DNA of 50,932 nt, taken from assembly GCF_016462415.1 (NCBI RefSeq), contig NZ_JAEMTF010000026.1:1-50932 (forward strand). Reading direction: 5' to 3'. Position 1 is the first letter of the stretch; each line of letters starts with the position of its first letter. Positions 1,053-18,376 of the stretch are shown one piece after another. A program made the translations under genes and the position numbers. Under the pieces are notes generated by a model. It saw only the letters and a program-made list of their open reading frames with translations. It did no database searches and had not been told where the DNA came from. The DNA is from Williamsia sp. GTDB taxonomy: Bacteria; Actinomycetota; Actinomycetes; Mycobacteriales; Mycobacteriaceae.

Positions 1053-1393
1053 CGGGTGACCCGCCCCATCGAGAACCGGAGACCCAGGATGACTTCGGCA
1101 TCGCGGTTCTCGACGTCGTCGACCGCATCCCGAGTGGTCGGGTGATGACTTACGGCGACATCGCCGAGTACCTGCAGCGCGGCGGACCGCGCGGCGTCGG
1201 CGGTGTGATGGCGCGCGACGGCCAAGCGGTCACCTGGTGGCGAGTCGTGCGCGCCACCGGAACCCTGCCCGCCCATCTGATGATCGAGGCGCAGACGCAG
1301 TGGCACAGCGAGAACACACCGTTGCGCCGCGGGATCGTCGACATCGAACGCGCGCGCTGGTGGCCCGACGAGACCGCCGGGGGACTCGCGTGA
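1049..1393 (+). CDS. MGMT-family alkyltransferase-like (ATL) DNA-binding protein
   Basis: About 110 residues matching the DNA-binding domain of O6-alkylguanine-DNA methyltransferases: IPSGRVMTYGDIAEYL followed by GVGGVMAR and VTWWRVVRATG. The catalytic Cys of the PCHRV motif is Trp here. That is the hallmark of alkyltransferase-like proteins, which bind O6-alkylguanine lesions and hand them to nucleotide excision repair without transferring the alkyl group. The start is a problem. In this frame there is no ATG, GTG or TTG between 728 and the conserved core at 1142. The options are a CTG at 1049 overlapping the VOC stop, or a GTG at 1056 in another frame with a one-base frame change near 1070. 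The 3' end overlaps the MFS gene by GTGA. Confidence 0.7.
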   Translation: MTGDPPHREPETQDDFGIAVLDVVDRIPSGRVMTYGDIAEYLQRGGPRGVGGVMARDGQAVTWWRVVRATGTLPAHLMIEAQTQWHSENTPLRRGIVDIERARWWPDETAGGLA

Positions 1394-2667
1394 CCGCGCC
1401 CTCGATGAGCCGGTCGTCATCGCTGACGGCCGGGGCGTTCGTCCTCCTGACGAGCCTGTATTTCGCGCAGGGACTGCCGTTCGGCTTCTTCACACAGGCG
1501 CTGCCGGTGGTGCTCCGCCGCTCCGGGTATTCGCTGGTGACGATCAGCGCCACCGGCATCCTCTTCGCCCCCTGGGCGCTCAAGTTCCTCTGGGCGCCGT
1601 ACGTCGACCGCTACGGGTCGCGGCGCCGATGGCTGTTGACGCTCCAAAGCGCTTCCGCTGCAGTCGCTCTGATCCTCGCCTGCCTGGACCTGTCGACGAC
1701 CCTGACCTGGCTGTTCGTCGGCATCGCGGTGGTCAACCTCATCTCCGCGACCCAGGACGTCGTCACCGACGGGCTCGCCGTCCGCCTGCTCGGACCGCGC
1801 GACCGCGGCGTCGGTAACGCGATTCAGGTGGGCGCGTATCGCATCGGGATGATCGTCGGCGGCGGGTTGCTGCTGTGGTTGTTCTCGCTCGCCGGGTGGC
1901 GTCTGTTGTTCGTCGCGATGGCGCTTCTACTGATCGCGTCGACGATCCCGGTGTGGTTCCTGCGTGCCCAGACCGATGCTGCTGATCAGGTCTCGTCCGC
2001 AGCCGACCGACCGTCGGCGGCTCGGTTGGCCACCGGCTGGTTCACGCGGCTACGCCGACCGGGGATGATCGCGTTCATCCTGCTCGTCGCCGGGTACAAG
2101 TTCGGGAACTCGATGGGGTCGGCGTTGGTGGGCCCGTTCCTCTCCGACGTCGGGCTCTCGCTGCCGCAGATCGCGCTCATCGAAGGCGGGTTGTCCTCGG
2201 TGTCGGCGTTGGTCGGCGCGGGACTCGGCGGTTGGTACGCCTACCGGTTCGGGCGTCGCCACGCGCTGTTGCTCGCCGGCATCACCCAGACCGCCGCGCT
2301 CGCGCTGTACGTCGCGGCCTCCCTCGACATCGGAGGCCTGGGTCTCATCGTCACGGCAAGCATCGCCGAGCACGTCTTCGGGGGCGCGGCCACCGTGGTG
2401 GTGTTCGCGCTGATGATGGACGCGTCCGATCGTGATCACGCGGGAACCGACTACACGCTGATCGCGTGCGCGGTCGTCTTCTCGCAGGGCATCGCCGGAT
2501 TCACGGCAGGCGTGGTCGGTGACCTGTTCGGCTACCCCGCGATGTTCGGCAGTGGATTGGTGCTCTCCGGCCTCGGGTGCGCGGTGATGCTCACGGCACT
2601 GTCGCGGGGCGTCGGCCCGAAAGGGTTGCGCGCGGTGGTGTCGCCGCCGGGCATCATGAGGTCATGA
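1390..2667 (+). CDS. MFS transporter, AmpG-like
   Basis: A 425-residue polytopic protein with about 12 hydrophobic segments. The sequence SLYFAQGLPFGFF near residue 20, TQDVVTDGLAV around residue 120 and the following GNAIQVGAYRIGMIVGGG resemble the AmpG/acetyl-CoA-transporter branch of the major facilitator superfamily. AmpG imports anhydromuropeptides in Gram-negatives; the substrate of actinobacterial relatives is unclear. The GTG start at 1390 overlaps the upstream stop (GTGA), giving translational coupling, and the 3' end overlaps the next gene by ATGA. A hydrophilic loop at roughly residues 195-220 separates the two six-helix halves. Confidence 0.82.
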   Translation: MTAPSMSRSSSLTAGAFVLLTSLYFAQGLPFGFFTQALPVVLRRSGYSLVTISATGILFAPWALKFLWAPYVDRYGSRRRWLLTLQSASAAVALILACLDLSTTLTWLFVGIAVVNLISATQDVVTDGLAVRLLGPRDRGVGNAIQVGAYRIGMIVGGGLLLWLFSLAGWRLLFVAMALLLIASTIPVWFLRAQTDAADQVSSAADRPSAARLATGWFTRLRRPGMIAFILLVAGYKFGNSMGSALVGPFLSDVGLSLPQIALIEGGLSSVSALVGAGLGGWYAYRFGRRHALLLAGITQTAALALYVAASLDIGGLGLIVTASIAEHVFGGAATVVVFALMMDASDRDHAGTDYTLIACAVVFSQGIAGFTAGVVGDLFGYPAMFGSGLVLSGLGCAVMLTALSRGVGPKGLRAVVSPPGIMRS

Positions 2668-3083
2668 CCGTCGAACTCGCCCCTGATGTCTCCCGTCATC
2701 TGACGCGTCGACTGACGCTGTGGGGTGGAGTGTCGGTCGTCGGTGGCGGGCTTCTGGCTCTGCGCGGACGGAGTGCGGGGAGCCGCGCTTTCGGACTTCA
2801 GAATGCGATGTGGGGCGCGATCGATGTGGTCATCGCCGGGGTGTCCACGCTGCAGTCGACCCCGCCCACCACACCGAAACTCCGTCGGCTCCTGCTGATC
2901 AACACCGGCCTCGATGTCGCCTACGTGGCCGGCGGAGCTCATCTGATCGTCCGCACCCCGAGTTTCCGCGGTCGGATCACCGCCGAGCAGGCGCGCGGGC
3001 ACGGCGCCGCGGTCGTCGTTCAGGGGGCTGCGCTGTTCGTTCTCGACCTCACCCACGCTCGCCAGTTGCATCCGTGGCCGTAG
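2664..3083 (+). CDS. Small membrane protein, unknown function
   Basis: A 139-residue protein with hydrophobic stretches at roughly residues 19-37, 48-66, 85-100 and 112-132. The middle segment, FGLQNAMWGAIDVVIA, has Asn, Trp and Asp inside a helix, which suggests a conserved functional face. I recall similar actinobacterial proteins of unknown function but cannot assign a family with certainty. The ATG overlaps the MFS stop (ATGA), so it is the last gene of the VOC-ATL-MFS operon. It is convergent with the SDR gene, with only 23 bases between the stops. Confidence 0.7.
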   Translation: MTVELAPDVSRHLTRRLTLWGGVSVVGGGLLALRGRSAGSRAFGLQNAMWGAIDVVIAGVSTLQSTPPTTPKLRRLLLINTGLDVAYVAGGAHLIVRTPSFRGRITAEQARGHGAAVVVQGAALFVLDLTHARQLHPWP

Positions 3084-3106
3084 TCCCCGCTCAGCGGGTC
3101 ATCTGG

Positions 3107-4069
3107 CTACGCCTGGTCTATCCCGGTGGCGTCCACGACCGCCTGCCACAACGCCTCCCGCGCGTCGGGTGAATCCCGGCGCCAGGACGGGTAGTGGGTC
3201 GGTCGGGTGGCACGGTCGTGCCAGAACTTACCGGTGCTCGTGGTCGCCTGGGGAGAGGCCGCCAACCACACGATGGTGTCGGCACCGGCTTGCGCGGTGC
3301 GCAGGATCGGCTTCATGACGGCACCGAACGCCGGGATCGAGTCGGTCACGCCGGGAGTCGCCGCCCACCCCGGGTGCATGCTGTGCACGACGGCGTCCTC
3401 GGGACCCGCGAACCGTTGCGCCAGTTGCTCGGTGACCACCACCTGCATGCGTTTGGTTCGCGCGTAGGCGGTGAGTCCGGAGTAGGTGCCCTCGGTGAAC
3501 TCGAAGTCCGTGGTCTGCAACGGCACGGGGTACATCCCGCCGCTGGAGACGAACACGACCCGCGAGTCCGCGTCGAACAGTGGCCGCAGCCCCACGGTCA
3601 ACGCGACCGGACCCAGCACGTGGGTGGCGAAGGCCGACTCGTGTCCCTGCGCGGAGAGCGTCCGCTCCGGCGGCATCACCCCGGCACTGTGGATCACGGC
3701 GTGCACACGCGGCAGGTCCGCGGTCAGCGCGGTCACCAGCCGCGAGACCGCGTCGAGATCGCTGATGTCGTACTCGTGGATCACCACATCGGCGTCGGGG
3801 ACGTGGCCTCGCACCGTCCGCGCCGACGACTCGAGTCGCTCGGCGGTCCGGCCGACGAGGTGGACGCGTGCGCCGAGTCGCGCGAGCTCGGTGGCGGCGG
3901 CCGCACCCAGACCGGAACTGCCGCCGGTGACGACGATGTCGACGCCGGTGTCGAACGGTTCCGGGTCGGGTGCCCAGAAGCGACTGCGCACCGATGATCC
4001 GATGCGTGAATAACCGGGGATGACCGTGCGATCGAGCAGGACATCGACGGCGGTGGTGAGCGGGTTCAT
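3107..4069 (-). CDS. Short-chain dehydrogenase/reductase (DHRS12-like)
   Basis: A 320-residue classical SDR. After a roughly 40-residue N-terminal extension it has the nucleotide-binding motif TGGSSGLG, the structural motif HSAGVM (for NNAG), the catalytic serines in VFVSSGG and the catalytic pair YARTK. Arg in VGRTAERL after the second strand suggests NADP(H). The N-terminal extension and HPGWAATPGV resemble the DHRS12 type, whose substrates are not well defined. The start at 4069 has a GGAGG Shine-Dalgarno 10 nt upstream. It lies 18 nt downstream of the metallophosphoesterase gene on the same strand, so the two are probably one transcript. Confidence 0.85.
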   Translation of the reverse strand: MNPLTTAVDVLLDRTVIPGYSRIGSSVRSRFWAPDPEPFDTGVDIVVTGGSSGLGAAAATELARLGARVHLVGRTAERLESSARTVRGHVPDADVVIHEYDISDLDAVSRLVTALTADLPRVHAVIHSAGVMPPERTLSAQGHESAFATHVLGPVALTVGLRPLFDADSRVVFVSSGGMYPVPLQTTDFEFTEGTYSGLTAYARTKRMQVVVTEQLAQRFAGPEDAVVHSMHPGWAATPGVTDSIPAFGAVMKPILRTAQAGADTIVWLAASPQATTSTGKFWHDRATRPTHYPSWRRDSPDAREALWQAVVDATGIDQA

Positions 4070-4087
4070 GTGTGTGGGCCTCCGCGG

Positions 4088-4624
4088 TCAGCGTATCGAC
4101 CGCGTCGTGTCGGGCTGCAGCTCGTGGAGGTGCACGTCACCCAGGACGCCGTCGGTGACGGTGGTGGTCATGTAGGTGCAGTGCGGCTGACGTCGACGAT
4201 CGGTGGGGGAGCCGGGGTTGAGCAGACGCAGGCCGGTGTCGGTGGTGGTGTCCCACGGGATGTGGCTGTGGCCGAACACGAGAACGTCGGTGTCGGGGTA
4301 GGTCAGCGACATCCGCTTGTCGCGGCCCGTCGAGGCGCCGGTCTCGTGGACGACCGTGATGCGCAGACCGTCGATGGTCACGTCGGCGCGCTCGGGCATC
4401 CGCCCCCGCAGTTCCGGCCCGTCGTTGTTCCCCCAACACGCGATGAGCCGCGCCGACCGTGCGTCGAGCAGCTCGAACGTGGCGAGATCGACCCAGTCGC
4501 CGGCGTGGATCACCACATCTGCAGCATCGACGGCAGCCAGAAGCTCCTCGGGTAGTACCTTCGCGCGTTTCGGCAGATGGGTGTCCGACATGAGGAGCAC
4601 AGACAGCGAGCTGGGCGGGGTCAT
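4088..4624 (-). CDS. YfcE/MJ0936-type metallophosphoesterase
   Basis: A 178-residue calcineurin-like phosphoesterase. All metal-binding blocks are visible in order: SDTHLP, HAGDW, WGNND, the VHETG His, and GHSHIP. Small proteins of this type hydrolyse phosphodiesters using two metal ions; the natural substrate is generally unknown. The ATG at 4624 is chosen because TAGCGT sits 7 nt upstream (leaderless pattern); a GTG at 4633 is possible. It precedes the SDR gene in the same orientation. Confidence 0.85.
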   Translation of the reverse strand: MTPPSSLSVLLMSDTHLPKRAKVLPEELLAAVDAADVVIHAGDWVDLATFELLDARSARLIACWGNNDGPELRGRMPERADVTIDGLRITVVHETGASTGRDKRMSLTYPDTDVLVFGHSHIPWDTTTDTGLRLLNPGSPTDRRRQPHCTYMTTTVTDGVLGDVHLHELQPDTTRSIR

Positions 4625-4631
4625 GACCGCC

Positions 4632-4637
4632 ACGCTA
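4632..4637 (-). promoter_or_regulatory. -10 hexamer of a leaderless promoter
   Basis: On the minus strand TAGCGT is followed by 7 nt and then the ATG at 4624. There is no Shine-Dalgarno in the gap. Confidence 0.5.
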
Positions 4638-4703
4638 ATGCTGCTGCGGCGGATCCAGGCCGACGGCCGGTCGTGGTCTCACGCCGCGTCGTCCGACCGG
4701 TGA

Positions 4704-4906
4704 ATCAGGCTACGCAAGAACACGTCTGACGCAGGCTGATGCGATGGCAATGTGTGCGTTCGTGAACGACTGGACATTCATACGAACGGGACACTGCTCA
4801 GTAGTGAGTTAAACCAACGTTCCCTGATATTGAACTGTCACTTAACTGTGATCATTAGTGTCCGTTTCGACGGCACCAGCGAGGTGCCCTGAGTAACGGA
4901 GCAGGA
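4704..4906 (+). promoter_or_regulatory. AT-richer promoter and leader of the secreted protein gene
   Basis: This stretch is clearly lower in GC than its surroundings (about 4740-4865), as expected of a strong promoter region. A leader hairpin, GGCACC (4872-4877) with GGTGCC (4883-4888) and loop AGCGA, lies just before the Shine-Dalgarno GGAGCAGGA and the ATG at 4907. Repeated ACTGT/TTAACTGTGA elements near 4834-4852 may be a regulator site. I cannot fix the transcription start. Confidence 0.35.
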
Positions 4907-5629
4907 ATGAAGATTCGTAATCGGATGATCGCGCTCACGGCGGCCGTCATGGCGACCGCTGCCCTGGGAACGGTGTCCGCCACCCAGGCGAACGCAGCGT
5001 TGGACCCGTCCAACAGCCTCGGTATCAACTTCGACGCTGACACCACGACTGTGATCGCGAAGACCCAGCAGCCGGTCGTGTTCCCCCAGACCAAACTGGT
5101 GACCCGCACCGACCTGACCAACCTGGAGGGAACCCTCAACCTCCCGCAGGCCGCGGCCAAGCTCAAGCTCGGTCCGCTCACGCTGGCCAACTTCAAGATC
5201 TCGGTCATCAACGCGTCGCAGGTGACCGGCACGATCAAGCAGGGTGGCACCGAAACCGCGCCGGCCCTCGACCTGGACGTGTCGCAGACCTTCCAGATCC
5301 GTCTCGACTCGGTGCAGCCGCTCAACATCAGCAGCGGTTCGGCCAGCCTGAACCTGGTTCCGGCCAACGGAAGCTGTGTCACCGCGCCCACCACGGCCAA
5401 GCTGACCGGTTCGCTCGATGCCACCAAGCTGCTCGGCGGCGACGTGCCGCAGGCCGACGCCCACATCAAGGGCAGCTACACGATCCCGCCGTTCCAGAAC
5501 TGCGGACCGTTCGCCGGCGTGCTCAACGCGATCATCGCGGGTCCGGGCAACACCCTCGACGTGCACGTGACCAACCCCGAGTTCGTGATCGGCGACCAGG
5601 CCGCAGCGCGCGCGAAGTTCGTCAACTGA
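4907..5629 (+). CDS. Secreted protein, unknown function
   Basis: A 240-residue protein with a classical signal peptide: MKIRNR, a hydrophobic core, then an Ala-x-Ala-type end (TQANA) about residue 31. The mature part is rich in Thr, Leu and Asn with alternating polar/apolar strands (LEGTLNLPQAAAKLKLG, VTGTIKQGG), suggesting an all-beta fold. It has two Cys (NGSC and FQNCGP) that could form a disulfide. I do not recognise a named family; similar exported proteins occur in mycolic-acid actinomycetes, and a cell-envelope role is inference. It has a good Shine-Dalgarno, its own promoter region and a strong terminator, so it is probably a single, well-expressed transcript. Confidence 0.75.
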   Translation: MKIRNRMIALTAAVMATAALGTVSATQANAALDPSNSLGINFDADTTTVIAKTQQPVVFPQTKLVTRTDLTNLEGTLNLPQAAAKLKLGPLTLANFKISVINASQVTGTIKQGGTETAPALDLDVSQTFQIRLDSVQPLNISSGSASLNLVPANGSCVTAPTTAKLTGSLDATKLLGGDVPQADAHIKGSYTIPPFQNCGPFAGVLNAIIAGPGNTLDVHVTNPEFVIGDQAAARAKFVN

Positions 5630-5659
5630 TCACAGACGTTCGCGTCTGAAACACCGCAG

Positions 5660-5690
5660 CGGCGGGTGGGTCCCATGGACCCGCCCGCCG
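5660..5690. terminator. Strong hairpin terminator
   Basis: A 14-bp stem (5660-5673 paired with 5677-5690, one G-U pair) with a 3-base loop CAT lies 30 nt after the stop at 5629. It is followed by TTGTCGTGTG rather than a T run. It sits between convergent genes and can serve both. Confidence 0.75.
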
Positions 5691-5747
5691 TTGTCGTGTG
5701 CGTCAGTCGAGTACGAGCCACTGCGAACGTGACAGCGTTCCAACCGA

Positions 5748-6656
5748 TCAGCCCGGGAACGGCCCGGCACGTCCGAACAGCGCAGGGACCGGCGAGTCCA
5801 GCTGCGCACCGATCCATGTCGCCGCGTCGGCGATGGCCCCGCCGTCGATGCCGGTGTCGACACCGGATCGCTGCAGCGCATAGTTGAGGTCCTCGGTCGC
5901 GATGTTGCCGGTTGCGTTGGGGGCGAACGGACATCCACCGAACCCGCCGATGCTGGCGTCGAGGGCGCAGTCGCCGAGATCGAAGGCGGTCAGCGCGTTG
6001 GCGTAACCGGTGTTGCGGGTGTTGTGGAAATGCCACCGCAGCGCTACGTCCGGCGCGACGCGTCGCGCACCGGCGTGCAGAGCGCGAACCTGTGCCGGCA
6101 CACCCACCCCGATGGTGTCGGCGATGGCGATCTCGTCGGGGCCCGACTCCGCGACCCGCGCCATCAGATCGATGACGCGCTCGGCGGGCATCTCGCCACT
6201 GAACGGGCACCCGAACGAGACCGCGAAGGTGACCGTGGTGAACATGCCCGCGGCTCGGGACTCGGCGGCGATCCGCTTCCACCGCGCCAGGCCCTCCTCG
6301 ACGTCGCAGCCCTGGTTGCGCTGACTGAACTCGTCGGAACAGACGACGACCACGTTCACCTCGTCGACGCCCGCGGCCAGAGCGCGTTCGAGTCCACGCT
6401 CGTTGAGCACCAACCCGATGTAGTCCACGTCGTCCCGCCGGGGGAGCGCCGCCATGACCTCTTCGGCGCCGGCCATCTGGGGCACACGCTTCGGGTTGAC
6501 GAAGCTGACGGCCTCGATGCGTCGCATGCCGGCGTCGACGGCGCGGGTGATGAAGTCGACCTTGGTTTCCACCGACAGGGCGGTGCGTTCGTTCTGCAGG
6601 CCGTCGCGCGGCCCGACTTCCACCACATGAGTTCCGGCGTAGGTCGTGTTCGTCAT
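5748..6656 (-). CDS. Hydroxymethylglutaryl-CoA lyase-type (DRE-TIM) lyase
   Basis: A 302-residue HMGL-like TIM barrel. The Arg-Asp pair of EVGPRDGLQ, the SFVNPKRVPQMA segment, the metal-binding HFHNTRNTG histidines and the mobile-loop Cys in GGCPFAPNATGN match HMG-CoA lyase. That enzyme splits 3-hydroxy-3-methylglutaryl-CoA into acetyl-CoA and acetoacetate in leucine catabolism; relatives cleave other 3-hydroxyacyl-CoAs. It lacks the usual leucine-pathway neighbours. It is divergent from a GntR regulator that leads a CoA-transferase/HyuAB operon, so a related but different substrate is plausible. A TTGCATACAA box lies 26 bp upstream of the start. The start at 6656 gives a normal family N-terminus. 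Confidence 0.85.
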   Translation of the reverse strand: MTNTTYAGTHVVEVGPRDGLQNERTALSVETKVDFITRAVDAGMRRIEAVSFVNPKRVPQMAGAEEVMAALPRRDDVDYIGLVLNERGLERALAAGVDEVNVVVVCSDEFSQRNQGCDVEEGLARWKRIAAESRAAGMFTTVTFAVSFGCPFSGEMPAERVIDLMARVAESGPDEIAIADTIGVGVPAQVRALHAGARRVAPDVALRWHFHNTRNTGYANALTAFDLGDCALDASIGGFGGCPFAPNATGNIATEDLNYALQRSGVDTGIDGGAIADAATWIGAQLDSPVPALFGRAGPFPG

Positions 6657-6681
6657 CCACCCATCATCACCCCACCAGGTA

Positions 6682-6691
6682 TTGCATACAA
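6682..6691. promoter_or_regulatory. Candidate GntR operator box 1 (TTGCATACAA)
   Basis: A near-palindrome (reverse complement TTGTATGCAA) identical to the box at 6755. It lies 26 bp upstream of the lyase start, where a minus-strand -10 region would be. FadR-subfamily GntR sites often look like TnGTnnnACnA. Confidence 0.6.
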
Positions 6692-6754
6692 GGTTGTGTT
6701 GATTCGCGGTTAAATCTGCGGTTTATCAAGACAGAACTCGAACTCCCGCTTACC

Positions 6755-6764
6755 TTGCATACAA
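6755..6764. promoter_or_regulatory. Candidate GntR operator box 2 (TTGCATACAA)
   Basis: An exact copy of the box at 6682, 73 bp away (about seven helical turns). It ends 20 bp before the preferred GTG start of the regulator gene. Confidence 0.6.
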
Positions 6765-6784
6765 ACAAGCGAAACGGGGTCGCA

Positions 6785-7528
6785 GTGGAACGTGCAGTCG
6801 ACCGGGTGTACTCCCACATCCGGGCCGCCATTCTCGACGGCCGGTTCGCGCCTGGGGCGCGGCTGGGTGAGGCGGAGCTGGCCGAGGTCACGCAGGCCTC
6901 CCGCACCCCGGTGCGAGAGGCGTTGCGCCAGCTGGAGGTCGAGGGCCTCGTCGAGGTGTTGCCGCATCGCGGCGCCCGCGTCTATCAGTTCACCTCCGAT
7001 GACCTCGAGGAGATCTACGACCTCCGCATGACGTTGGAGGCGTTGGCGGCCGGGCGCGCGGCGTCGCGGATCAGCGATGGGCAGCTCGATCAGATGGCCG
7101 AACTGTGCGACCGCATGGAGGCGGCCGCGCTCGACGACGACCTCGAACTCGTCGCCACGGCCAACATGGAGTTCCACGCCATCGTCCGCACCGCCTCGGC
7201 GAGCACCCGGCTCACCTCGATGCTCAGCGCGGTGATCCAGCTGCCACTGATGATGCGGACCTTCCACCGGTACGCGCCCGAGGATCTGCACCGCAGTGCC
7301 GGACACCATCGTGAACTGATTGCCGCGCTGCGTGCGCGGGACGAGGTGTGGGCGGATGCCGTGATGCGGTCGCACGTCCGAGCGGCCAAGGCCGTGCTGC
7401 TCGCCTCGGTTCGCGCCGACGAGGAGCTGGCGACGACGGCCCAACCGGCAGAAACACCGGCCCAACCCGGGCACACAACCGCCCACCACGCGCACACGAC
7501 GGCCCAACCGGCTCAGAGCGGAGTCTGA
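6785..7528 (+). CDS. GntR-family (FadR/FCD subfamily) transcriptional regulator
   Basis: A 247-residue regulator. The N-terminal winged helix-turn-helix (RVYSHIRAAILDGRFAPGARL, LAEVTQASRTPVREALRQLE, VEVLPHRGARV) is typical GntR. The C-terminal FCD domain carries candidate metal ligands such as His in NMEFHAIV and the GHHRELIAAL and SHVRAA segments. Its ligand is probably a carboxylate or acyl compound handled by the operon. The last 30 or so residues (TTAQPAETPAQPGHTTAHH...) are a low-complexity tail outside the domain. The start could also be the TTG at 6755 inside the operator; the GTG at 6785 fits the family better. The next gene begins 2 nt after its stop. Confidence 0.88.
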   Translation: MERAVDRVYSHIRAAILDGRFAPGARLGEAELAEVTQASRTPVREALRQLEVEGLVEVLPHRGARVYQFTSDDLEEIYDLRMTLEALAAGRAASRISDGQLDQMAELCDRMEAAALDDDLELVATANMEFHAIVRTASASTRLTSMLSAVIQLPLMMRTFHRYAPEDLHRSAGHHRELIAALRARDEVWADAVMRSHVRAAKAVLLASVRADEELATTAQPAETPAQPGHTTAHHAHTTAQPAQSGV

Positions 7529-7530
7529 TC

Positions 7531-8757
7531 ATGACCACGGCACACGACACGGCACCTCCCACCGCGACCGGGCCGTTGGCCGACCTGCGGGTGGTGGAGA
7601 TGGGTCAGCTGTTGGCCGGCCCGTTCTGTGGTCAACTCCTGGCCGACTTCGGTGCCGAGGTCATCAAGCTCGAGGCCCCGGGGGTCGGAGATCCCATGCG
7701 GCAGTGGGGGCGTGAGAAGCCCTACGGCAAGTCGCTGTGGTGGCCGGTGGTGGCCCGCAACAAGAAGTCGGTGACGTGTGACATGCGCACGCCGGAGGGC
7801 CAGGAACTCGCCCGCGACATCATCGGCCGCTCCGACATCGTCGTCGAGAACTTCCGTCCCGGCACCCTCGAGCGGTGGAACCTCGGCTTCGAGGAACTGC
7901 GCGCCGACAACCCCGGACTCATCATGGCGCGCGTCAGCGGCTACGGACAGACCGGTCCGTACTCCTCACGCGCCGGTTACGGGTCGATCGGTGAGGCGAT
8001 GGGCGGGATCCGTTACGTCACCGGCGATCCCGACAATGCCCCGTCGCGGGCCGGGATCTCGCTCGGCGACTCGCTGGCGGCGGTGTTCGCCACCATCGGT
8101 GTGCTCACCGCTCTGCACAGCCGATCGGTCACCGGCCGCGGGCAGCTCGTCGACGCGGCCATCTACGAGTCGGTCCTCGCGATGATGGAGTCGATGCTGC
8201 CGGAGTGGGCGGTGGCCGGATATCAGCGCGAGCGGACGGGCTCGGTGCTGCCGAACGTCTCGCCCAGCAACGTCTATCCCACGCGGGGCGGCGAGATGAT
8301 CCTGATCGCCGCCAATCAGGACACCGTGTTCGGTCGGCTCGCGACGGTCATGGGTCGCGAGGATCTGATCACCGCGCCGCGTTTCGCCGGCCATGCGGCC
8401 CGCGGGGAGAACATGGACGAACTCGACGGGATCATCGCCGCCTGGACGGCTGACCTCGACACCGACGAGCTGTTGGAGACCCTGCACGGCGGTGGCGTTC
8501 CCGCCGGTCGGATCTTCACCGCGCGTGACATGTTCGACGACCCGCACTTCGCCGCCCGCGACGCGATCGTGCGGCTGGCCCACCGCGACTTCGGCGAGTT
8601 CCCCACGCACAACGTCTTCCCCAAGCTCGGGGACACCCCCGGTGCGGTGCGGCATCTCGGTCCCGAACTCGGCGAACACAACGACGACATCTACCGGCAC
8701 CTGCTCGAACTGTCCGACGACCGTCGCGCCGACCTCGCGCGCCGCAGCATCATCTGA
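7531..8757 (+). CDS. CaiB/BaiF-type class III CoA-transferase
   Basis: A 408-residue family III CoA-transferase. The N-terminus LRVVEMGQLLAGPFCGQLLADFGAEVIKLE, the VENFRPGTLERWNLG block, the SGYGQTGP motif and the GRGQLVDAAIYES region are characteristic. These enzymes move CoA between carboxylic acids through enzyme-bound anhydride intermediates. Members related to human SUGCT use succinyl-CoA with glutarate or hydroxymethylglutarate. Placed next to an HMG-CoA-lyase-type gene, it may activate the acid that the lyase then cleaves; this is inference. It starts 2 nt after the GntR stop and is followed after 40 nt by hyuA, so it belongs to the same operon. Confidence 0.87.
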   Translation: MTTAHDTAPPTATGPLADLRVVEMGQLLAGPFCGQLLADFGAEVIKLEAPGVGDPMRQWGREKPYGKSLWWPVVARNKKSVTCDMRTPEGQELARDIIGRSDIVVENFRPGTLERWNLGFEELRADNPGLIMARVSGYGQTGPYSSRAGYGSIGEAMGGIRYVTGDPDNAPSRAGISLGDSLAAVFATIGVLTALHSRSVTGRGQLVDAAIYESVLAMMESMLPEWAVAGYQRERTGSVLPNVSPSNVYPTRGGEMILIAANQDTVFGRLATVMGREDLITAPRFAGHAARGENMDELDGIIAAWTADLDTDELLETLHGGGVPAGRIFTARDMFDDPHFAARDAIVRLAHRDFGEFPTHNVFPKLGDTPGAVRHLGPELGEHNDDIYRHLLELSDDRRADLARRSII

Positions 8758-8797
8758 CCCCCACCGCCCACCGGCGTCGAAACAACTAGGAGACCCC

Positions 8798-10855
8798 ATG
8801 CGATACCGACTCGGAGTGGACGTCGGCGGGACGTTCACCGATGTGCTGCTGCTCGAGGAGACCTCGGGCAGCACCTACCGCGCCAAGACCCCGTCGACAC
8901 CCGCGGATCAATCCGTCGGCGTGCTCAACGGCGTCACCAAGGTGTGCACCGACGCGGGCATCGACCCCGAACAGATCGAGCAGGTGCTGCACGGGACCAC
9001 CGTGGCGACCAACGCGATCTTGCAGGGACGCGGTGCTCGGGTGGGTCTGGTGACAACCGACGGGTTCCGTCAGGTCCTGCAGATCGCGCGGTCGTTCGTC
9101 CCGGGCGGGCTCGCCGGGTGGATCATCTGGCCGAAGCCCGAGCCACTGGCCAAGCTCGAGCACACCGTTCAGGTGGTCGGCCGGATCGGCGCCGACGGCG
9201 GTGAGATCACCCCGCTCGACGAGGAGCAGACCCGCGGCGAGCTGCGCAAGCTCGCCGGTGCCGACGTCGAGGCGATCACGGTGTCGCTGATCAACTCGTA
9301 TGCGAACAGCGACCACGAGGAGCAGGTCGGACGGTGGGTGGCCGAGGAGCTGCCCGACATCCCGATCTCGTTGTCGTCGCACGTCCTGCCGGAGATGCGC
9401 GAGTACGAGCGCACCCTGACCACGGTGGCCAACAGCTATGTGCAGCCCGAGGTCTCGCGATACGTCAAGAACCTCGACTCGTCGCTGAGGGAGAAGGGGA
9501 TCACCGCGCCGCTGTCGATCCTGCGCAGCGACGGTGGTCTGGTACAGGCGAGCAAGGCCGCCGAGGACCCGGTGTCGCTGCTGTTGTCGGGACCGGCCGG
9601 CGGCGTGACCGGTGCGGTGTGGTTCGCCCAGCAGGCCGGATACAACGACTTCCTGACCTTCGACATGGGCGGGACGTCCACCGATGTCGCCCTCGTCCTC
9701 GACGGTCAACCCCGCATCGGCCGCGAGACCAAGGTGGGCGACCTCGCGGTCCGCGCGACCAGTGTCGACGTCCGAACCGTCGGCGCCGGTGGCGGTTCCA
9801 TCGCGCATGTCCCCGAGCTGACCAAGGCCCTGCGCGTGGGTCCGCAGTCCGCAGGTGCCGATCCCGGTCCCGCGGCCTACGGCAACGGCGGCACGGAACC
9901 GACGGTCACCGACGCCAACGTCGTCTTGGGGTATCTGCCCAGCGACCTCGCCGGCGGCGAGGTGAAGCTCGATGTCGAGGCCGCCCGCACGGCGGTCGCG
10001 ACGATCTCCGACGCGATGGGACTCGATTCCCCCGAGGCCGCGGCGTCGGGGGTGGTCGACATCGTCAACGAGAACATGTTCGGAGCGTTGCGGCTGGTGA
10101 GTGTCCAGCAGGGCTACGACCCCCGCGATTTCGCGCTGGTGTCGTTCGGCGGTGCCGGTCCGCTGCACGCGAACGCCCTCGGCCGGCTCACCGGCGCCTG
10201 GCCGGTGATCATCCCGCCCTCGCCCGGGGTGCTGTGCGCCTACGGCGACGCCACGACCTGTCTGCGTGCCGAGAGTGCCCGCACCCTGATCCGTGCCTTC
10301 GTCGATCTCACCAGCGACGAATTGCGTTCGGTCATCTCCGATCTCGCCGAGGTGGCCACCGAGCGCCTCGAGACCGAAGGCGTGCCGCGGGCCGAGCAGA
10401 CCGCGACCTACCAGGTGGACCTGCGCTACCACGGCCAGGGATTCGAGATCCCCGTCGACCTCGACCCCGATGTGCTCACCGGGACCGGAGACCTGCTGGC
10501 GGAGTTGGGCACCGCCTTCGACACCGAGCACAAACGACTGTTCTCGTTCCTGCTCAAGAACGAGCGTGAGGTCATCAACCTGCGCGTCACCGTGAGCGGG
10601 CCGCGTCCCGAGGTCGCCTGGACCGAACTGGCCCAGGGGTCGGAGGATCCGTCAGCGGCACTGATCGAGGAGTCGCAGGTGTGGATGGACGGCGCGCACA
10701 CGACCGCGGGCATCTACGACCGCGAGAAGTTGTTGGCGGGCAACGTCATCGTCGGACCGGCCATCGTCACCGAGATGGACTCCACGACGCTCGTCCTGTC
10801 CGGGCACGCCGCCACCGTCGACCCCAGCGGCAGCCTCATCATCCGACCGGTCTGA
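8798..10855 (+). CDS. hyuA: Hydantoinase/oxoprolinase family subunit A (ATP-dependent)
   Basis: A 685-residue protein with Hydantoinase_A N-terminal and core domains. The ASKHA-type nucleotide site starts at residue 4 (GVDVGGTFTDVLLLEE), and a second GGTSTDVALV phosphate loop lies near residue 290. LHGTTVATNAILQGRG, DPGPAAYGNGG and SFGGAGPLHA are family blocks. With subunit B it forms ATP-dependent ring-opening amidases (5-oxoprolinase, N-methylhydantoinase, caprolactamase) or, in relatives, ketone carboxylases. The TAGGAGA Shine-Dalgarno supports the ATG at 8798. The downstream N-carbamoylsarcosine-amidase-like gene favours a hydantoin-type substrate over a ketone. The symbol is a family name, not a proven activity. 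Confidence 0.88.
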   Translation: MRYRLGVDVGGTFTDVLLLEETSGSTYRAKTPSTPADQSVGVLNGVTKVCTDAGIDPEQIEQVLHGTTVATNAILQGRGARVGLVTTDGFRQVLQIARSFVPGGLAGWIIWPKPEPLAKLEHTVQVVGRIGADGGEITPLDEEQTRGELRKLAGADVEAITVSLINSYANSDHEEQVGRWVAEELPDIPISLSSHVLPEMREYERTLTTVANSYVQPEVSRYVKNLDSSLREKGITAPLSILRSDGGLVQASKAAEDPVSLLLSGPAGGVTGAVWFAQQAGYNDFLTFDMGGTSTDVALVLDGQPRIGRETKVGDLAVRATSVDVRTVGAGGGSIAHVPELTKALRVGPQSAGADPGPAAYGNGGTEPTVTDANVVLGYLPSDLAGGEVKLDVEAARTAVATISDAMGLDSPEAAASGVVDIVNENMFGALRLVSVQQGYDPRDFALVSFGGAGPLHANALGRLTGAWPVIIPPSPGVLCAYGDATTCLRAESARTLIRAFVDLTSDELRSVISDLAEVATERLETEGVPRAEQTATYQVDLRYHGQGFEIPVDLDPDVLTGTGDLLAELGTAFDTEHKRLFSFLLKNEREVINLRVTVSGPRPEVAWTELAQGSEDPSAALIEESQVWMDGAHTTAGIYDREKLLAGNVIVGPAIVTEMDSTTLVLSGHAATVDPSGSLIIRPV

Positions 10856-10905
10856 CCCGACCTCACACCCCGAGACACCCTCCCTCCCAGCACAGGAGAA
10901 CCACG

Positions 10906-12795
10906 ATGGCCACCATCATCGAAACCGCCACCGACCCGGTCGCGAAGACCTCCGTCGACCCGGTCACCCTCGACATCATCGAGAACGCTCTGCGCAACGC
11001 CCGCTACGAGATGGACGAGGTGCTGTTCCGTACCGCGCTGTCGCCCGGTATCCGGGAACAGCACGACGAGTTCCCGCTCATCGCCGATCCGAGCGGCAAG
11101 ATGGTCGTCGGCCAGTTCGGTCTGTCCGTCCCCGACTTCCTCGACAACTTCGACGGCACCGTCGGCGACGGCGACATCCTGCTCACCTCCGACCCCTACG
11201 CCTGCGGCGCTGCCATCAGCCACGCCAACGATTGGTTGATCGTCCTGCCCATCTTCCACAGCGGGCGGGTCGTCGGGTGGTCGTCGATGTTCGGCCACAT
11301 GTCCGACGTGGGCGGCAAGACGCCGTCGTCGATGCCCGCCGACGCACGCACCATCTTCGAAGAGGGCGTGGTGATCCCGCCGTTCAAGCTCTACGACCAG
11401 GGCACGCTCAACGAGACCGCGCTCGACATCATCCTCAACCAGGTGCGCATGCCCGACTGGAACCGCGCCGACCTCAACGGTCTGGTCGCGGCATGCACCA
11501 CGGCGTCGCGACGCATCGTCGAACTGTGTGACCGGTTTGGCGTCGAGGTGTACCTGTCGGCGCTCGACGCGCTGCTCGACCGCAACTACCAGGCCATGAA
11601 GGTGCTGCTCGCGACGCTGTTCGTCGACGGTGAGACCATCGAGTTCAGTGACTACATCTGCGATGACGGATGTGGTTACGGGCCTTATGAACTCACCATC
11701 AAGCTGACCCGTCACGGCGAGAAGATCCACCTCGACTTCTCCGAACACGCGCCGCAGGCCGTGGGGCCGATCAACTACTTCATCAACGAGAACCTCGTCC
11801 GGATGTTCTTCGGCATCTACGTGATCACCATCGCCGATCCGCAGATCCTGTGGAACGACGGGTTCTATCCGTTGATCGACGTGACCATCCCGGACAACTC
11901 GTTCTGGAAACCGGCCTATCCGGCCGCGCTCAACGGTCGCAATCACGGCATCGGCCGCGTGTTCGACCTGTTCGGTGGGCTGCTGGGGCAGAACAACCCG
12001 GAGATCCTCAACGCCGCCGGGTTCTCCTCGTCGCCGCACTTCATGTACTCCGGTCACTACGACGGCGGACCGCGCGACGGCGAGTGGTTCCAGCTCTACT
12101 CGATCGGGTTCGGCGGTATCCCCGGGCGTCCCATCGGCGACGGACCGGACGGTCATTCGCTGTGGCCGTCGTTCGTGAACATCCCGTGCGAGTACCTGGA
12201 GTCGTACTACCCGTTGCGGGTCGAGCGGTGGGAGACGTTGCCCGACACCGGCGGTGCCGGTGTGCACCGCGGCGGCAACGGTGTCGACGTCGCCTACCAC
12301 TTCGAACAACCGGGCACGATCGCCATCCACGACGACCGCTGGCTCACCTACCCCTGGGGTGTCAACGGCGGCAAGCCCGGCGCGCGCGGTCGCAAGTGGA
12401 TCGTGCGGAAGAACGGTGAGATCGACATCCTGCCCAGCAAGATCCACGACGCGCCGGTGTACCCGGGCGACGTGCTGCACTTCGTCACCTGGGGCGGCGG
12501 GGGATGGGGTGACCCGCTCACCCGCGACCCCGAACTGGTCGCCCTCGAGGTGCGACGCGGCTTGGTCACCGTCGAGGGTGCGACGGCCGGCTACGGGGTG
12601 GTCTGCGACGACCAGGGTGTCGTCGACACCGCGGCGACCGAGACCCGTCGTGCGGAGATCCGCTCAGGACGCGGCGAACTGCAGACCTTCGACATGGGCC
12701 CGTCGATCGCGGAGATCCTGGAACGCTGCGAGGAGGAGACGGGATTGCCGGCCCCGCGGCCGCCGGTGAGCGTGGCCCGGTCAGCGGCTCGATGA
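10906..12795 (+). CDS. hyuB: Hydantoinase/oxoprolinase family subunit B
   Basis: A 629-residue HyuB-type subunit. The opening DPVTLDIIENALRNARYEMDEVLFRTALSPGIREQHDEF is the typical start of the domain, followed by SDPYACGAAISHANDW, the GHMSDVGGKTPSSMPAD metal-site region and HFVTWGGGGWGDPL near the C-terminus. It partners HyuA in the ATP-dependent enzyme. AGGAGAA lies 5 nt before the ATG. Its stop overlaps the next start (ATGA), so the hydrolase is made in step with it. The pair is about 1,314 residues, close to the single-chain 5-oxoprolinase of eukaryotes. Confidence 0.88.
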   Translation: MATIIETATDPVAKTSVDPVTLDIIENALRNARYEMDEVLFRTALSPGIREQHDEFPLIADPSGKMVVGQFGLSVPDFLDNFDGTVGDGDILLTSDPYACGAAISHANDWLIVLPIFHSGRVVGWSSMFGHMSDVGGKTPSSMPADARTIFEEGVVIPPFKLYDQGTLNETALDIILNQVRMPDWNRADLNGLVAACTTASRRIVELCDRFGVEVYLSALDALLDRNYQAMKVLLATLFVDGETIEFSDYICDDGCGYGPYELTIKLTRHGEKIHLDFSEHAPQAVGPINYFINENLVRMFFGIYVITIADPQILWNDGFYPLIDVTIPDNSFWKPAYPAALNGRNHGIGRVFDLFGGLLGQNNPEILNAAGFSSSPHFMYSGHYDGGPRDGEWFQLYSIGFGGIPGRPIGDGPDGHSLWPSFVNIPCEYLESYYPLRVERWETLPDTGGAGVHRGGNGVDVAYHFEQPGTIAIHDDRWLTYPWGVNGGKPGARGRKWIVRKNGEIDILPSKIHDAPVYPGDVLHFVTWGGGGWGDPLTRDPELVALEVRRGLVTVEGATAGYGVVCDDQGVVDTAATETRRAEIRSGRGELQTFDMGPSIAEILERCEEETGLPAPRPPVSVARSAAR

Positions 12796-13439
12796 GCACC
12801 GAGTCGTCCGACCCGCTCGACGACTACCGCCGGTCCGGTTTCGCGGGATCGGTGGGATTCGGGCAGCGGCCCGCGGTACTGGCCATCGACCTCGCGCGCG
12901 CCTACGTCGACGACTCCTCGCCGCTGCGCGCGCCGGTCGAGTCGGCGGTGGCGGCGTCGGCCCGGTTGGTCGCCGCCGCGCGCGGGTTGTCGGTGCCGGT
13001 GGTCTTCACGAGGGTGAGCTACCGGGTGGACCCGGACAGCGGCGCGATCGTCGACGGTGGGTTGTTCGTCGCGAAGATCCCGTCGCTGCGGGTGTTCGCC
13101 GAGGGTTCGCCGTTGGCCGAGTTCGTCGACGACCCGCGGCCCCGTGGTGGCGAGGTGGTCATCACCAAGCAGTACGCGAGTGCGTTCAGCGGAACGTCGC
13201 TGGCCGCGACGCTGTCGTCCCGGGGGATCGACACCGTGGTCATCTGCGGTCTGTCGACCAGTGGATGCGTCCGTGCCTCCGCCACCGATGCGCTGCAACT
13301 CGGGTTCCGGCCGATCGTGGTCGCCGACGCCTGCGGGGACCGGACGCCGGCCATCCAGGAGGCGAACCTGACCGACCTGGCGGCCAAGTACGCCGACGTC
13401 GTCGACACCGACGAGGCCATCCGGCTGATGACGGGCTGA
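12792..13439 (+). CDS. Isochorismatase-fold cysteine hydrolase, N-carbamoylsarcosine amidase-like
   Basis: A 215-residue cysteine hydrolase. The triad is visible: Asp in LAIDLARAYVD, Lys in VVITKQYASAF and Cys in GLSTSGCVRASATDA. The N-terminal GSVGFGQRPAVLAIDLARAY and the SPLRAP segment are closer to N-carbamoylsarcosine amidohydrolase than to isochorismatase or nicotinamidase. In creatinine degradation, N-carbamoylsarcosine amidase acts directly after N-methylhydantoinase, a HyuAB-type enzyme, giving sarcosine, CO2 and ammonia. The ATGA overlap with hyuB supports a shared pathway. The exact substrate is not proven. Confidence 0.83.
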   Translation: MSTESSDPLDDYRRSGFAGSVGFGQRPAVLAIDLARAYVDDSSPLRAPVESAVAASARLVAAARGLSVPVVFTRVSYRVDPDSGAIVDGGLFVAKIPSLRVFAEGSPLAEFVDDPRPRGGEVVITKQYASAFSGTSLAATLSSRGIDTVVICGLSTSGCVRASATDALQLGFRPIVVADACGDRTPAIQEANLTDLAAKYADVVDTDEAIRLMTG

Positions 13440-13523
13440 GCCGCGGAACCGGGTCGGTAACGTTTCGCGACCTCGTGACGACTCCGGTGTGTAGGCACGT
13501 CGGGATCACGAGGGGCATTTTGT

Positions 13524-14966
13524 ATGGGCTGGACCGTTGTTGACGAGAACCGATCACCGGCGACCGGATGGAGCGCTGCGGTGCTCCGTCCCGCGGTGGT
13601 ACGGCCCGCGGCGATCATCATCGCGGTGAGCGTCGTCATCTTCGCGCTGACCGCGCTGCTGACGACGGACAACAAGGCTCAGGCGCTGACCGGCCACCCC
13701 GAGGTCCTGCGCCAGGGTTGTACCTGGGACTCGTCCGGTAACTACGTCCAGAACTGCAGGGTCTACTCGCAGTCGCAGGGCAAGTGGGTGATCGTGCAGA
13801 TCCGCGCGTCCAGCGGCAGCACCCAGGGCGTCTACCTGCTCGACGGAATGCGTGCGCGTGAGGACCGTTCCGCGTGGACCACCGACGTGCAGGCCGCCAA
13901 GGTCTACGACGGCAAGTCCGACACCACGCTGGTGATGCCGGTGGGCGGCGCCTCGTCGTTCTACACCGACTGGAACGGCGGCGCGGGCGACAAGAACACC
14001 ACCATCAAGCAGGAGACCTTCCTGACCTCCGAGCTGCCGGACTTCCTGCAGCAGAACTTCGGTGTCGCCAAGAGCGGCAACGCGATCGTCGGACTGTCGA
14101 TGTCGGCCGGGCCCGCGGTGACGCTGGCCGAGAAGCACCCCGAGCAGTTCAAGGTCGTCCAGGCGATGTCGGGGTACTACCAGACCAACAACCCGCTCGG
14201 CGCGCTCGGCGTCTTCGCGACCCAGTCGCTGGTGTCGAACTACACCAACGGCATCGTCAACATGTGGGGCGCCCCCGGCAGCGCACAGTGGCAGCAGAAC
14301 GACGCGTCGCAGAACCTGGCGAAGCTCAAGGAGAACGGTCAGGTCCTGATCATCTCCTCGGGCAACGCGTTCCTGACGCCGCAGGAGATGGCCAAGCTGG
14401 CCCCGCAGGATCAGATCAGCGCGATCCTCCTCGAGGCCCTGTCCGCGGTGTCCACCGTGCTGCTGCAACTGCAGGCGGCGCAGGCCGGCGTCTCGGTCGT
14501 CACCATCCCGAACTACGGCGGACACACCTGGGAGAACTGGGGGCGCGGGCTCGCCGCGGGTAAGCAGAACCTGCTCGACGCGATGAAGGCGACGCCGCCG
14601 GTCACGCAGAAGACCGTGGTGCTGGCCGCGAACAGGATCGGCACGACCGAGTCGTCGTCGATCGCGTCACCGACGCCCACGTCATCGTCCGAGTCCGGCG
14701 CGCCCTCGAGCTCGGCCGCATCGAGTTCCACACCGTCGAGTTCGAGTTCGTCGGCCCCGAGTTCGTCGGCATCCACGTCCTCGACGCCGGACGCGAGCAC
14801 CGATGTCTCCGCCTCGACCACAGCTCCGTCGGCGCCGTCCTCCTCGGTCGCCCCGAGCGCGGCCGCGGTGCCCGACACCGCCGGCAGCAGCTCGACGGTC
14901 CCGTGCTCGACGACCCCAGCGGTGCCGGGATCGACGGCCGTCGCGACCTGTGTGCCGGTTCCCTGA
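13524..14966 (+). CDS. Mycolyltransferase-like esterase with N-terminal anchor and Ser-rich tail
   Basis: A 480-residue alpha/beta hydrolase of the antigen 85/PS1 family, which transfers mycolic acids to trehalose or arabinogalactan. One membrane segment (about residues 30-48) would act as signal or anchor. The fold shows VYLLDGMRARED, the nucleophile Ser at about residue 192 in GLSMSAG, and the catalytic His in GGHTWENWG. From about residue 377 the chain becomes a 90-residue Ser/Ala/Pro/Thr linker (SSS repeats) ending in a short VPCSTTPAVPG segment with two Cys. Most antigen 85 proteins lack such a tail, so it may span the cell wall or be a glycosylation site. AGGGGC precedes the ATG. Confidence 0.87.
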   Translation: MGWTVVDENRSPATGWSAAVLRPAVVRPAAIIIAVSVVIFALTALLTTDNKAQALTGHPEVLRQGCTWDSSGNYVQNCRVYSQSQGKWVIVQIRASSGSTQGVYLLDGMRAREDRSAWTTDVQAAKVYDGKSDTTLVMPVGGASSFYTDWNGGAGDKNTTIKQETFLTSELPDFLQQNFGVAKSGNAIVGLSMSAGPAVTLAEKHPEQFKVVQAMSGYYQTNNPLGALGVFATQSLVSNYTNGIVNMWGAPGSAQWQQNDASQNLAKLKENGQVLIISSGNAFLTPQEMAKLAPQDQISAILLEALSAVSTVLLQLQAAQAGVSVVTIPNYGGHTWENWGRGLAAGKQNLLDAMKATPPVTQKTVVLAANRIGTTESSSIASPTPTSSSESGAPSSSAASSSTPSSSSSSAPSSSASTSSTPDASTDVSASTTAPSAPSSSVAPSAAAVPDTAGSSSTVPCSTTPAVPGSTAVATCVPVP

Positions 14967-18309: not shown

Positions 18310-18376
18310 CGCCGTAACGGGTGAGCAATACAACAGCCGGGAATGACGCGGCAGGTCGATCCTGTTGGACTCGGGC

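Follow-up and report, generated by a model that had tools for sequence, protein, structure and literature searches.

The nicotinate fermentation of Eubacterium barkeri ends with dimethylmaleate hydratase (DmdAB) and 2,3-dimethylmalate lyase, and the 3-hydroxypropionate cycle of Chloroflexus uses a succinyl-CoA:citramalate CoA-transferase together with an (R)-citramalyl-CoA lyase. Blastobacter processes cyclic imides with an imidase and a half-amidase. Here we describe a cluster of six genes in Williamsia sp., located at positions 5748–13439 of a 50,932-nucleotide stretch (NZ_JAEMTF010000026.1; the whole stretch is called the window), which encodes a GntR-type regulator, a class III CoA-transferase, the hydantoinase-type subunits HyuA and HyuB, an isochorismatase-fold amidase and an enzyme of the 3-hydroxy-3-methylglutaryl (HMG)-CoA lyase (HMGL) type. 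Comparison of related loci reveals the co-conservation of these genes, a common promoter palindrome, the replacement of the CoA-transferase and lyase pair by a single lyase and recurrent hydratase genes. The six genes almost certainly form a co-regulated catabolic unit. That the substrate of this GntR-controlled unit is a five-membered cyclic imide, in the simplest case a substituted maleimide, is a finely balanced proposal built on gene content.

The described systems each resemble the locus in part. As at the end of the E. barkeri route, some relatives pair a hydratase of the LeuD/DmdB family with a lyase of the phosphoenolpyruvate (PEP)-mutase family in one cluster (locus L202; also L072 and L101), a likeness by family and not by orthology. 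Entry here, however, is by HyuAB and an amidase and not from nicotinate, and the window contains a CoA-transferase and an HMGL-type enzyme but no in-cluster hydratase gene. As described for Chloroflexus, a class III CoA-transferase is paired here with an HMGL-type enzyme, and the same reaction is expected; the Chloroflexus cycle, however, is autotrophic and contains neither HyuAB nor an amidase. Caprolactamase CapAB and hydantoinase HyuAB are likewise two-subunit, ATP-dependent ring openers, and their ATP-site and metal-site residues are largely kept here. Nevertheless, the caprolactamase models, which are the best-scoring ones in NCBIfam, give 522 bits for HyuA and 192 bits for HyuB against cut-offs of 1000, and the companion genes of CapAB are different. 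The maleamate amidase NicF and N-carbamoylsarcosine amidohydrolase share their fold family with the window amidase. In Blastobacter, and in nicotinate breakdown by HxnM and HxnN of Aspergillus nidulans (imide to half-amide to dicarboxylate, according to the available parts of PMC9304392), an imide is opened to a half-amide, the amide of which is then hydrolysed to give a dicarboxylate. The ring openers of both belong to families other than that of HyuAB and HxnN is another amidase type, and the parts of PMC9304392 consulted mention neither a CoA step nor a comparable lyase.

Organization, conservation and proposed operator of the unit

In the window, the lyase gene is divergent from a run of five co-directional genes, and two copies of a palindrome lie between them.

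5748–6656, minus strand: HMGL-type enzyme, 302 residues, proposed 2-alkylmalyl-CoA lyase (Pfam HMGL-like, NCBIfam NF004283)
6682–6691: palindrome TTGCATACAA, copy 1, proposed GntR operator, between the divergent lyase and GntR genes
6755–6764: palindrome TTGCATACAA, copy 2, proposed operator, 73 bp from copy 1, overlapping the TTG start listed for GntR
6785–7528, plus strand: GntR/FCD-family regulator (Pfam GntR and FCD); start GTG 6785 preferred, TTG 6755 in the list of open reading frames
7531–8757, plus strand: class III CoA-transferase, 408 residues (Pfam CoA_transf_3)
8798–10855, plus strand: HyuA, ATP-binding subunit of the hydantoinase/oxoprolinase family, 685 residues (Pfam); ATP-site motifs visible
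10906–12795, plus strand: HyuB, metal-site subunit, 629 residues (Pfam); four CapB metal ligands matched
12792–13439, plus strand: isochorismatase-fold amidase, 215 residues, proposed half-amide (maleamate-type) amidase (Pfam Isochorismatase)

All six open reading frames are intact and all products score above the Pfam curated cut-offs. The lyase reaches 137.8 bits with HMGL-like (cut-off 29), the regulator 67.4 bits with GntR and 90.1 bits with FCD, the CoA-transferase 404.9 bits with CoA_transf_3, and the amidase 135.6 bits with Isochorismatase. HyuA reaches 307.1 bits with Hydantoinase_A (cut-off 22.9) and also carries the N- and C-terminal domains, and HyuB reaches 459.9 bits with Hydantoinase_B (cut-off 26.8). 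The genes for GntR, CoA-transferase, HyuA and HyuB are separated by 2, 40 and 50 bp, in this order, and the amidase gene overlaps that of HyuB by 4 bp. Because the TTG at 6755 lies within the palindrome copy at 6755–6764, the GTG at 6785 is the likelier start of the GntR gene.

Related loci were collected by scanning the genome collection with an alignment of nine HyuB sequences, which matched at least 597 stretches, 573 of them encoding relatives. The first sample comprises the best 80 of these 573, selected by HyuB similarity alone and thereby biased to near relatives; 68 loci with enough flank were counted from a tblastn table, and 12 truncated loci, among them L088 with both lyases, were left out. 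Among the 68, HyuA is present in 68, GntR in 64, the amidase in 63, the CoA-transferase in 51, the HMGL type in 46, a PEP-mutase-type lyase in 16 and LeuC in 3, where L101 is scored as lacking a PEP-mutase-type gene that lies just past the 7-kb limit. Exceptions include one locus without HMGL, and L119 without the amidase. For the second sample, 396 genomes of the phylum were searched and the HyuB clade was present in 30; 27 loci from these 30 genomes and two further relatives, minus the repeats L180, L199 and L205, gave 24 distinct loci. HyuA occurs in all 24, GntR in 19, the amidase, the CoA-transferase and HMGL in 21 each, and the PEP-mutase type and LeuC in 2 each, with some of the absent parts lying beyond contig ends. 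The control consisted of 18 distant HyuAB loci of the relatives (HyuA 33–42%, HyuB 25–33% identity). None of these 18 has an amidase, HMGL-type or PEP-mutase-type gene nearby, and a distant CoA-transferase (29–31% identity) and a distant GntR (27–31%) occur in 3 each. The gene set predicted in the first-pass annotation is thus real, and its genes are co-conserved in both samples.

The bearers are soil and water bacteria and salt-loving archaea. The set is found in Actinomycetota, sphingomonads, Acidiphilium, one Bacteroidota genome and one Geobacillus plasmid, and in altered form on haloarchaeal plasmids. Plasmids of Novosphingobium and Acidiphilium carry the full set, and that of Geobacillus all but GntR. 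The order is GntR, CoA-transferase, HMGL, HyuA, HyuB, amidase in the family of genomes G051 and G081, and GntR, HMGL, HyuA, HyuB, CoA-transferase, amidase in sphingomonads. As the gene order varies between groups, the set is more than one inherited block. Window HyuB is 93–99% identical to that of four Williamsia records, which places the source genome in or very close to this genus. Two Williamsia genomes without this HyuB keep most flanking genes in order and lack the GntR-to-amidase block between the HMGL and esterase genes. In Rubrobacteraceae-type loci the neighbours (citrate synthase, biotin carboxylase, AMP-binding enzymes and amidase-signature genes) give no clear substrate clue. No description of the gene set was found among the titles and abstract openings listed from the PMC literature. 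The enzyme families are already known; what appears to be new, within the literature searched, is their combination in one gene set, the exchange of the lyases and the palindrome.

The promoters of the clusters share the palindrome TTG[CT]AT[AG]CAA (TTGYATRCAA). Of the 102 exact copies in the 96 loci with GntR, 100 are in promoter windows, which total 206 kb, and 2 are in the remaining 1.74 Mb; the enrichment is descriptive, as the palindrome was defined on the same loci. The promoter windows contain the exact 10-mer in 76 of these loci and its 8-mer core in 93. In the 18 control loci (358 kb) the 10-mer is absent, and the 8-mer occurs six times, spread over four of them. Among the eight Williamsia genomes scanned, the locus carries a copy in each of the six that possess the unit; one of the two without the unit has no palindrome, and the other has three elsewhere. 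We propose that the palindrome is the GntR operator, which makes the unit findable by sequence. A larger regulon was also considered and set aside, as scans of the 8 Williamsia and 16 other genomes gave few palindromes away from the locus. A TonB-dependent receptor gene is present in ten sphingomonad loci, and in six of them (L033, L043, L113, L114, L115, L119) it starts beside a palindrome copy next to GntR, an arrangement that suggests regulated uptake.

Several observations concern the surroundings of the unit. A further copy, TTGTATACAA, is found in three close genomes (G007:C2:71863, corresponding to L224 6863; G000:C123:40184; G001:C1:1636208). In G007, the one site of the three that was inspected, it adjoins genes that, judged by eye from their translations, appear to encode a regulator of the GntR type, a zinc dehydrogenase and a membrane transporter. 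These neighbours give no substrate clue; perhaps a similar site serves a related regulator. The source draft genome (G000) consists of 243 contigs, the window being contig C71. A second contig, C80 (L205; 13,715 bases), repeats window positions 1106–14835 at 99.85% identity (5 mismatches, 1 gap) and contains the entire unit once more. Contig redundancy, a mixture of strains or a recent duplication may account for this. In the trees of HyuB and of the amidase, L101 (record title Planococcus sp. APC 4015) falls among actinobacterial sequences, and its contig may be misplaced in its assembly or recently transferred. Moreover, an old-yellow-enzyme-family gene lies at window positions 18365–19459, outside the conserved unit; its best model is NADPH dehydrogenase NamA (396.6 bits, below the cut-off of 431).

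Replacement of the CoA-dependent lyase pair

The CoA-transferase falls below every NCBIfam equivalog cut-off, and its solved relatives include succinate–hydroxymethylglutarate CoA-transferase. The window lyase keeps the HxH motif and the Cys loop. Instead of this pair, some relatives possess a gene of the PEP-mutase/isocitrate-lyase family, a gene type not present in the window. Both CoA-transferase and HMGL are lacking in 15 of the 16 loci with the PEP-mutase type, whereas 50 of the 52 loci without it have the CoA-transferase (Fisher p ~5e-12, kinship ignored). On a HyuB tree built by a quick method from 67 rows, which comprise every locus outside the CoA type and a sample of 31 of the 70 within it, the replacement requires four changes, at least three of which are forced by well-supported branches. 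Both versions occur inside one haloarchaeal clade, where a LeuA-family protein takes the place of the lyase beside the CoA-transferase.

Compared with solved chains, one representative of the replacing proteins matches 2,3-dimethylmalate lyase first (224.8 bits) and the petal death protein second, followed by a chain named carboxyvinyl-carboxyphosphonate phosphorylmutase, oxaloacetate acetylhydrolase and methylisocitrate lyase (189 bits). A loop with the catalytic cysteine, K[KR]CGH, is present in 25 of 25 PEP-mutase-type proteins of the relatives. Their second motif is TP in the 21 that are readable and SP in the oxaloacetate hydrolase compared. A PEP-mutase-family lyase requires an alpha-hydroxy acid, and the petal death protein acts on dialkylmalates. 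The family assignments suggest that both lyase solutions suit an acid of the form HOOC-C(OH)(R)-CH(R')-COOH, that is, a 2-alkylmalate (methylisocitrate included), and that HMG does not suit the PEP-mutase type. The cleaved acid is very probably of this 2-alkylmalate type, and the context suggests that the true substrate of the HMGL-type enzyme is a 2-alkylmalyl-CoA rather than HMG-CoA. LeuCD-type hydratases make the (R) form, which is the one matching (R)-citramalyl-CoA. The stereochemistry of HMG-CoA lyases and of LeuCD-type hydratases agrees with the imide pathway proposed here, as (S)-HMG-CoA lyases correspond to (R)-citramalyl-CoA in the portion of PMC6689899 consulted. That a single lyase stands in for a two-enzyme CoA route narrows down what the intermediate can be and opens the pathway to direct testing.

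The pair could instead salvage 3-hydroxy-3-methylglutarate next to an unrelated HyuAB and amidase. This would fit the lyase score of 300 bits with the NCBIfam HMG-CoA lyase model NF004283 (cut-off 246), the HMG-related CoA-transferase among the solved relatives, and the survival of the HMGL gene, the sole one of its type found in the Williamsia genomes, in the two genomes that lack the other five genes. This persistence counts against a lyase dedicated to the unit in Williamsia; elsewhere the lyase is often inside the operon. HMG salvage is nonetheless very unlikely. All parts of the unit are co-conserved and share the palindrome, the pair is replaced by a PEP-mutase-family lyase that is unable to act on HMG, and HyuAB and the amidase are retained where the pair is gone.

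Proposed ring opening, amide hydrolysis and hydration

In an alignment, Asp54, His106, Asp109 and His131 of window HyuB match the four metal ligands of CapB, as given in the available part of the caprolactamase study (PMC8453981). Among 106 cluster HyuB sequences, the first metal motif is kept in 105 and SH..D in 106, while 86 have His and 20 have Asn at the fourth position. The two ATP-site motifs of HyuA are found in 93 and 99 of 111 sequences. The best solved match of both subunits is N-methylhydantoinase. We propose that HyuAB is an ATP-dependent hydrolase of a cyclic amide or imide, with a maleimide-type imide as an evenly supported candidate substrate. HyuA and HyuB also match acetophenone and acetone carboxylase subunits of the same superfamily, so an ATP-dependent carboxylase of that kind was considered. 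It is highly improbable, as HyuA scores higher with the caprolactamase than with the acetophenone carboxylase model (324 bits) and a carboxylase would leave the amidase unexplained.

The window amidase is 33–44% identical to four solved chains, of which the N-carbamoylsarcosine amidohydrolases 26st and 1nba are the best relatives, followed by 3ot4 and 4l07 (3ot4/3uao and 4l07 are chains that we take to be NicF maleamate amidases). Among 105 cluster amidases, 26st is the top-scoring of the four references for 94. The motif [ST]TSGC[VI]RA is present in 102 of the 105; it reads TTSGCVRA in 26st, 3ot4 and 4l07, and TAAGCVRH in the Arthrobacter-type chain 1nba. These names, together with the N-methylhydantoinase match, would suit a hydantoin- or creatinine-type route, in which the ring opened by HyuAB is a substituted or N-methyl hydantoin, the amidase decarbamoylates the product and the lyase pair handles the carbon skeleton. 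We regard this route as doubtful, since it leaves unexplained the hydratase and the two alternative lyases of the 2-alkylmalate type, and the amidase motif is that of 26st and the presumed NicF chains and not that of 1nba.

Genes of the LeuC/LeuD type are found in the cluster of 7 of 118 distinct loci (L034, L035, L072, L101, L122, L182 and L202). The LeuC proteins of L034, L035, L072, L101 and L122 resemble housekeeping LeuC, whereas the LeuCD of L182 and L202 form another branch. The small subunits of the latter two score 131.8 bits (L182) and 172.7 bits (L202) with TIGR02087, the LeuD/DmdB family model (cut-off 108.95), while LeuD of L035 and L072 pass ordinary LeuD cut-offs instead. LeuC of L182 is 53% identical to that of L202; its full-length identity to other LeuC proteins in 12 genomes is at most 37%, and short pieces of housekeeping LeuC reach 46%. 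In L182 the LeuCD-type genes overlap the amidase gene, and L202 has the order ATP-binding cassette (ABC) transporter, PEP-mutase-type lyase, alcohol dehydrogenase, LeuC, LeuD, HyuA, HyuB and contig end. Hydratases of the LeuCD family act on cis-unsaturated diacids; maleate, and hence maleamate and maleimide upstream, is therefore the simplest reading. A hydration step is probably part of the pathway, and in Williamsia it would perhaps need the single LeuC-like enzyme.

The same 2-alkylmalate type could also arise, with no maleimide involved, by opening and deamidation of a different cyclic amide, for example a six-membered imide or a lactam that is hydroxylated or unsaturated. Caprolactamase models score best for HyuAB, so lactams are possible; most loci lack LeuCD, as expected if the hydroxyl is already present; and an alcohol dehydrogenase gene recurs in L072, L082, L101, L190 and L202. 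A lactam, however, would give an amine, whereas the amidase seems to need a half-amide, and LeuCD of two different branches recurs. We consider this alternative unlikely, though the least so of those weighed here.

Proposed pathway and possible natural substrates

We infer the substrates and the order of steps, including the imide and the hydration, from the gene content. HyuAB would use ATP to open a substituted maleimide to a substituted maleamate, from which the amidase would free ammonia to leave a substituted maleate. A LeuCD-type hydratase, encoded in the cluster in some relatives and perhaps of the housekeeping type in Williamsia, would then form a 2-alkylmalate, probably (2R). The CoA-transferase would convert it to the CoA ester and the HMGL-type enzyme would split the ester into a 2-oxo acid and an acyl-CoA, the 2-oxo acid being pyruvate if the carbinol carbon bears a methyl group. 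In other bacteria and archaea, one PEP-mutase-family lyase would take the place of the last two steps.

The first-pass annotation had proposed that a cyclic amide or imide is opened and that a branched hydroxy-diacid is then activated and cleaved at a C–C bond, all under one regulator; the co-conservation, the palindrome and the exchange of lyases fit this proposal. Its core idea is retained; the probable hydration step and the operator were absent from it. The decarbamoylation that it placed after ring opening is less well supported, the amidase being about equally close to N-carbamoylsarcosine amidases and to the presumed maleamate amidases. Its alternative of HMG salvage keeps the lyase score and the single Williamsia gene in its favour, and loses to the constancy of HyuAB beside an exchangeable lyase pair and to HMG not being an alpha-hydroxy acid.

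Besides the HMG-CoA lyase score and the persistence of HMGL without the unit, several observations weigh against the imide pathway. LeuCD genes are not found in 111 of the 118 loci, the window included, and Williamsia has one LeuC-like gene besides aconitase. Four Actinoplanes-type loci (L074, L076, L078, L086) keep the CoA-transferase without the amidase or either lyase nearby, and L069 and L087 hold HyuAB and the amidase only. The amidase tree with the four solved references places the window amidase not clearly nearer to the N-carbamoylsarcosine or to the presumed NicF chains. The best NCBIfam model of the PEP-mutase type is methylisocitrate lyase (277.5 bits, below the cut-off of 354.4). 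A sugar-type ABC transporter in four loci might suggest a more polar substrate. Finally, on two sphingomonad plasmids a HyuAB of 58% identity is accompanied by a succinate-semialdehyde dehydrogenase, and the other parts of the unit are all missing.

These plasmids, of Sphingomonas sp. JE1 (L031 9932–15410) and Sphingobium sp. TomTYG65 (L032 4259–9737), have the dehydrogenase gene after HyuAB and perhaps serve a related pathway for another ring; L031 also bears MmgE/PrpD, HapK-like and methyltransferase genes. A FAD_binding_2 flavoprotein is common to the HyuAB loci L031 (5674–7077), L032 (1–1404) and L034 (1525–2913), and, speculatively, could interconvert succinimide- and maleimide-type rings.

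Tetrapyrrole-derived maleimides are 3-methyl-4-R-maleimides, a structure that suits a pyruvate-making lyase. The unit might represent a widespread bacterial and archaeal pathway for maleimides from the oxidation of chlorophyll, heme and bilins (methyl-ethyl-maleimide, methyl-vinyl-maleimide and hematinic acid), an idea that we hold tentatively and rate as rather unlikely. No gene pointing to tetrapyrroles is present among the identified neighbours, which make up the smaller part of the neighbour clusters, and for this reason we infer the tetrapyrrole source as a hypothesis. No paper on bacterial enzymes using maleimides or hematinic acid was found among the PMC papers listed. Each year chlorophyll is made and degraded on a scale of 10^12 kg, and its products in senescent leaves and lake sediments are reported to include maleimides and hematinic acid, according to the available parts of PMC7318184, whose authors found hematinic acid and not maleimides in their own leaves. 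Maleimides are also products of bacteriochlorophylls, as stated in the part of PMC8669743 consulted.

If the imide reading is true, HyuAB enzymes would gain a substrate class, and many annotations as hydantoinase, N-carbamoylsarcosine amidohydrolase and HMG-CoA lyase would need new names. If the tetrapyrrole source is also true, tetrapyrrole maleimides would be converted to ammonia, pyruvate and R-CH2-CO-CoA (butyryl-CoA from the ethyl form, glutaryl-CoA from hematinic acid), and a gap would be closed in the recycling of tetrapyrrole carbon and nitrogen.

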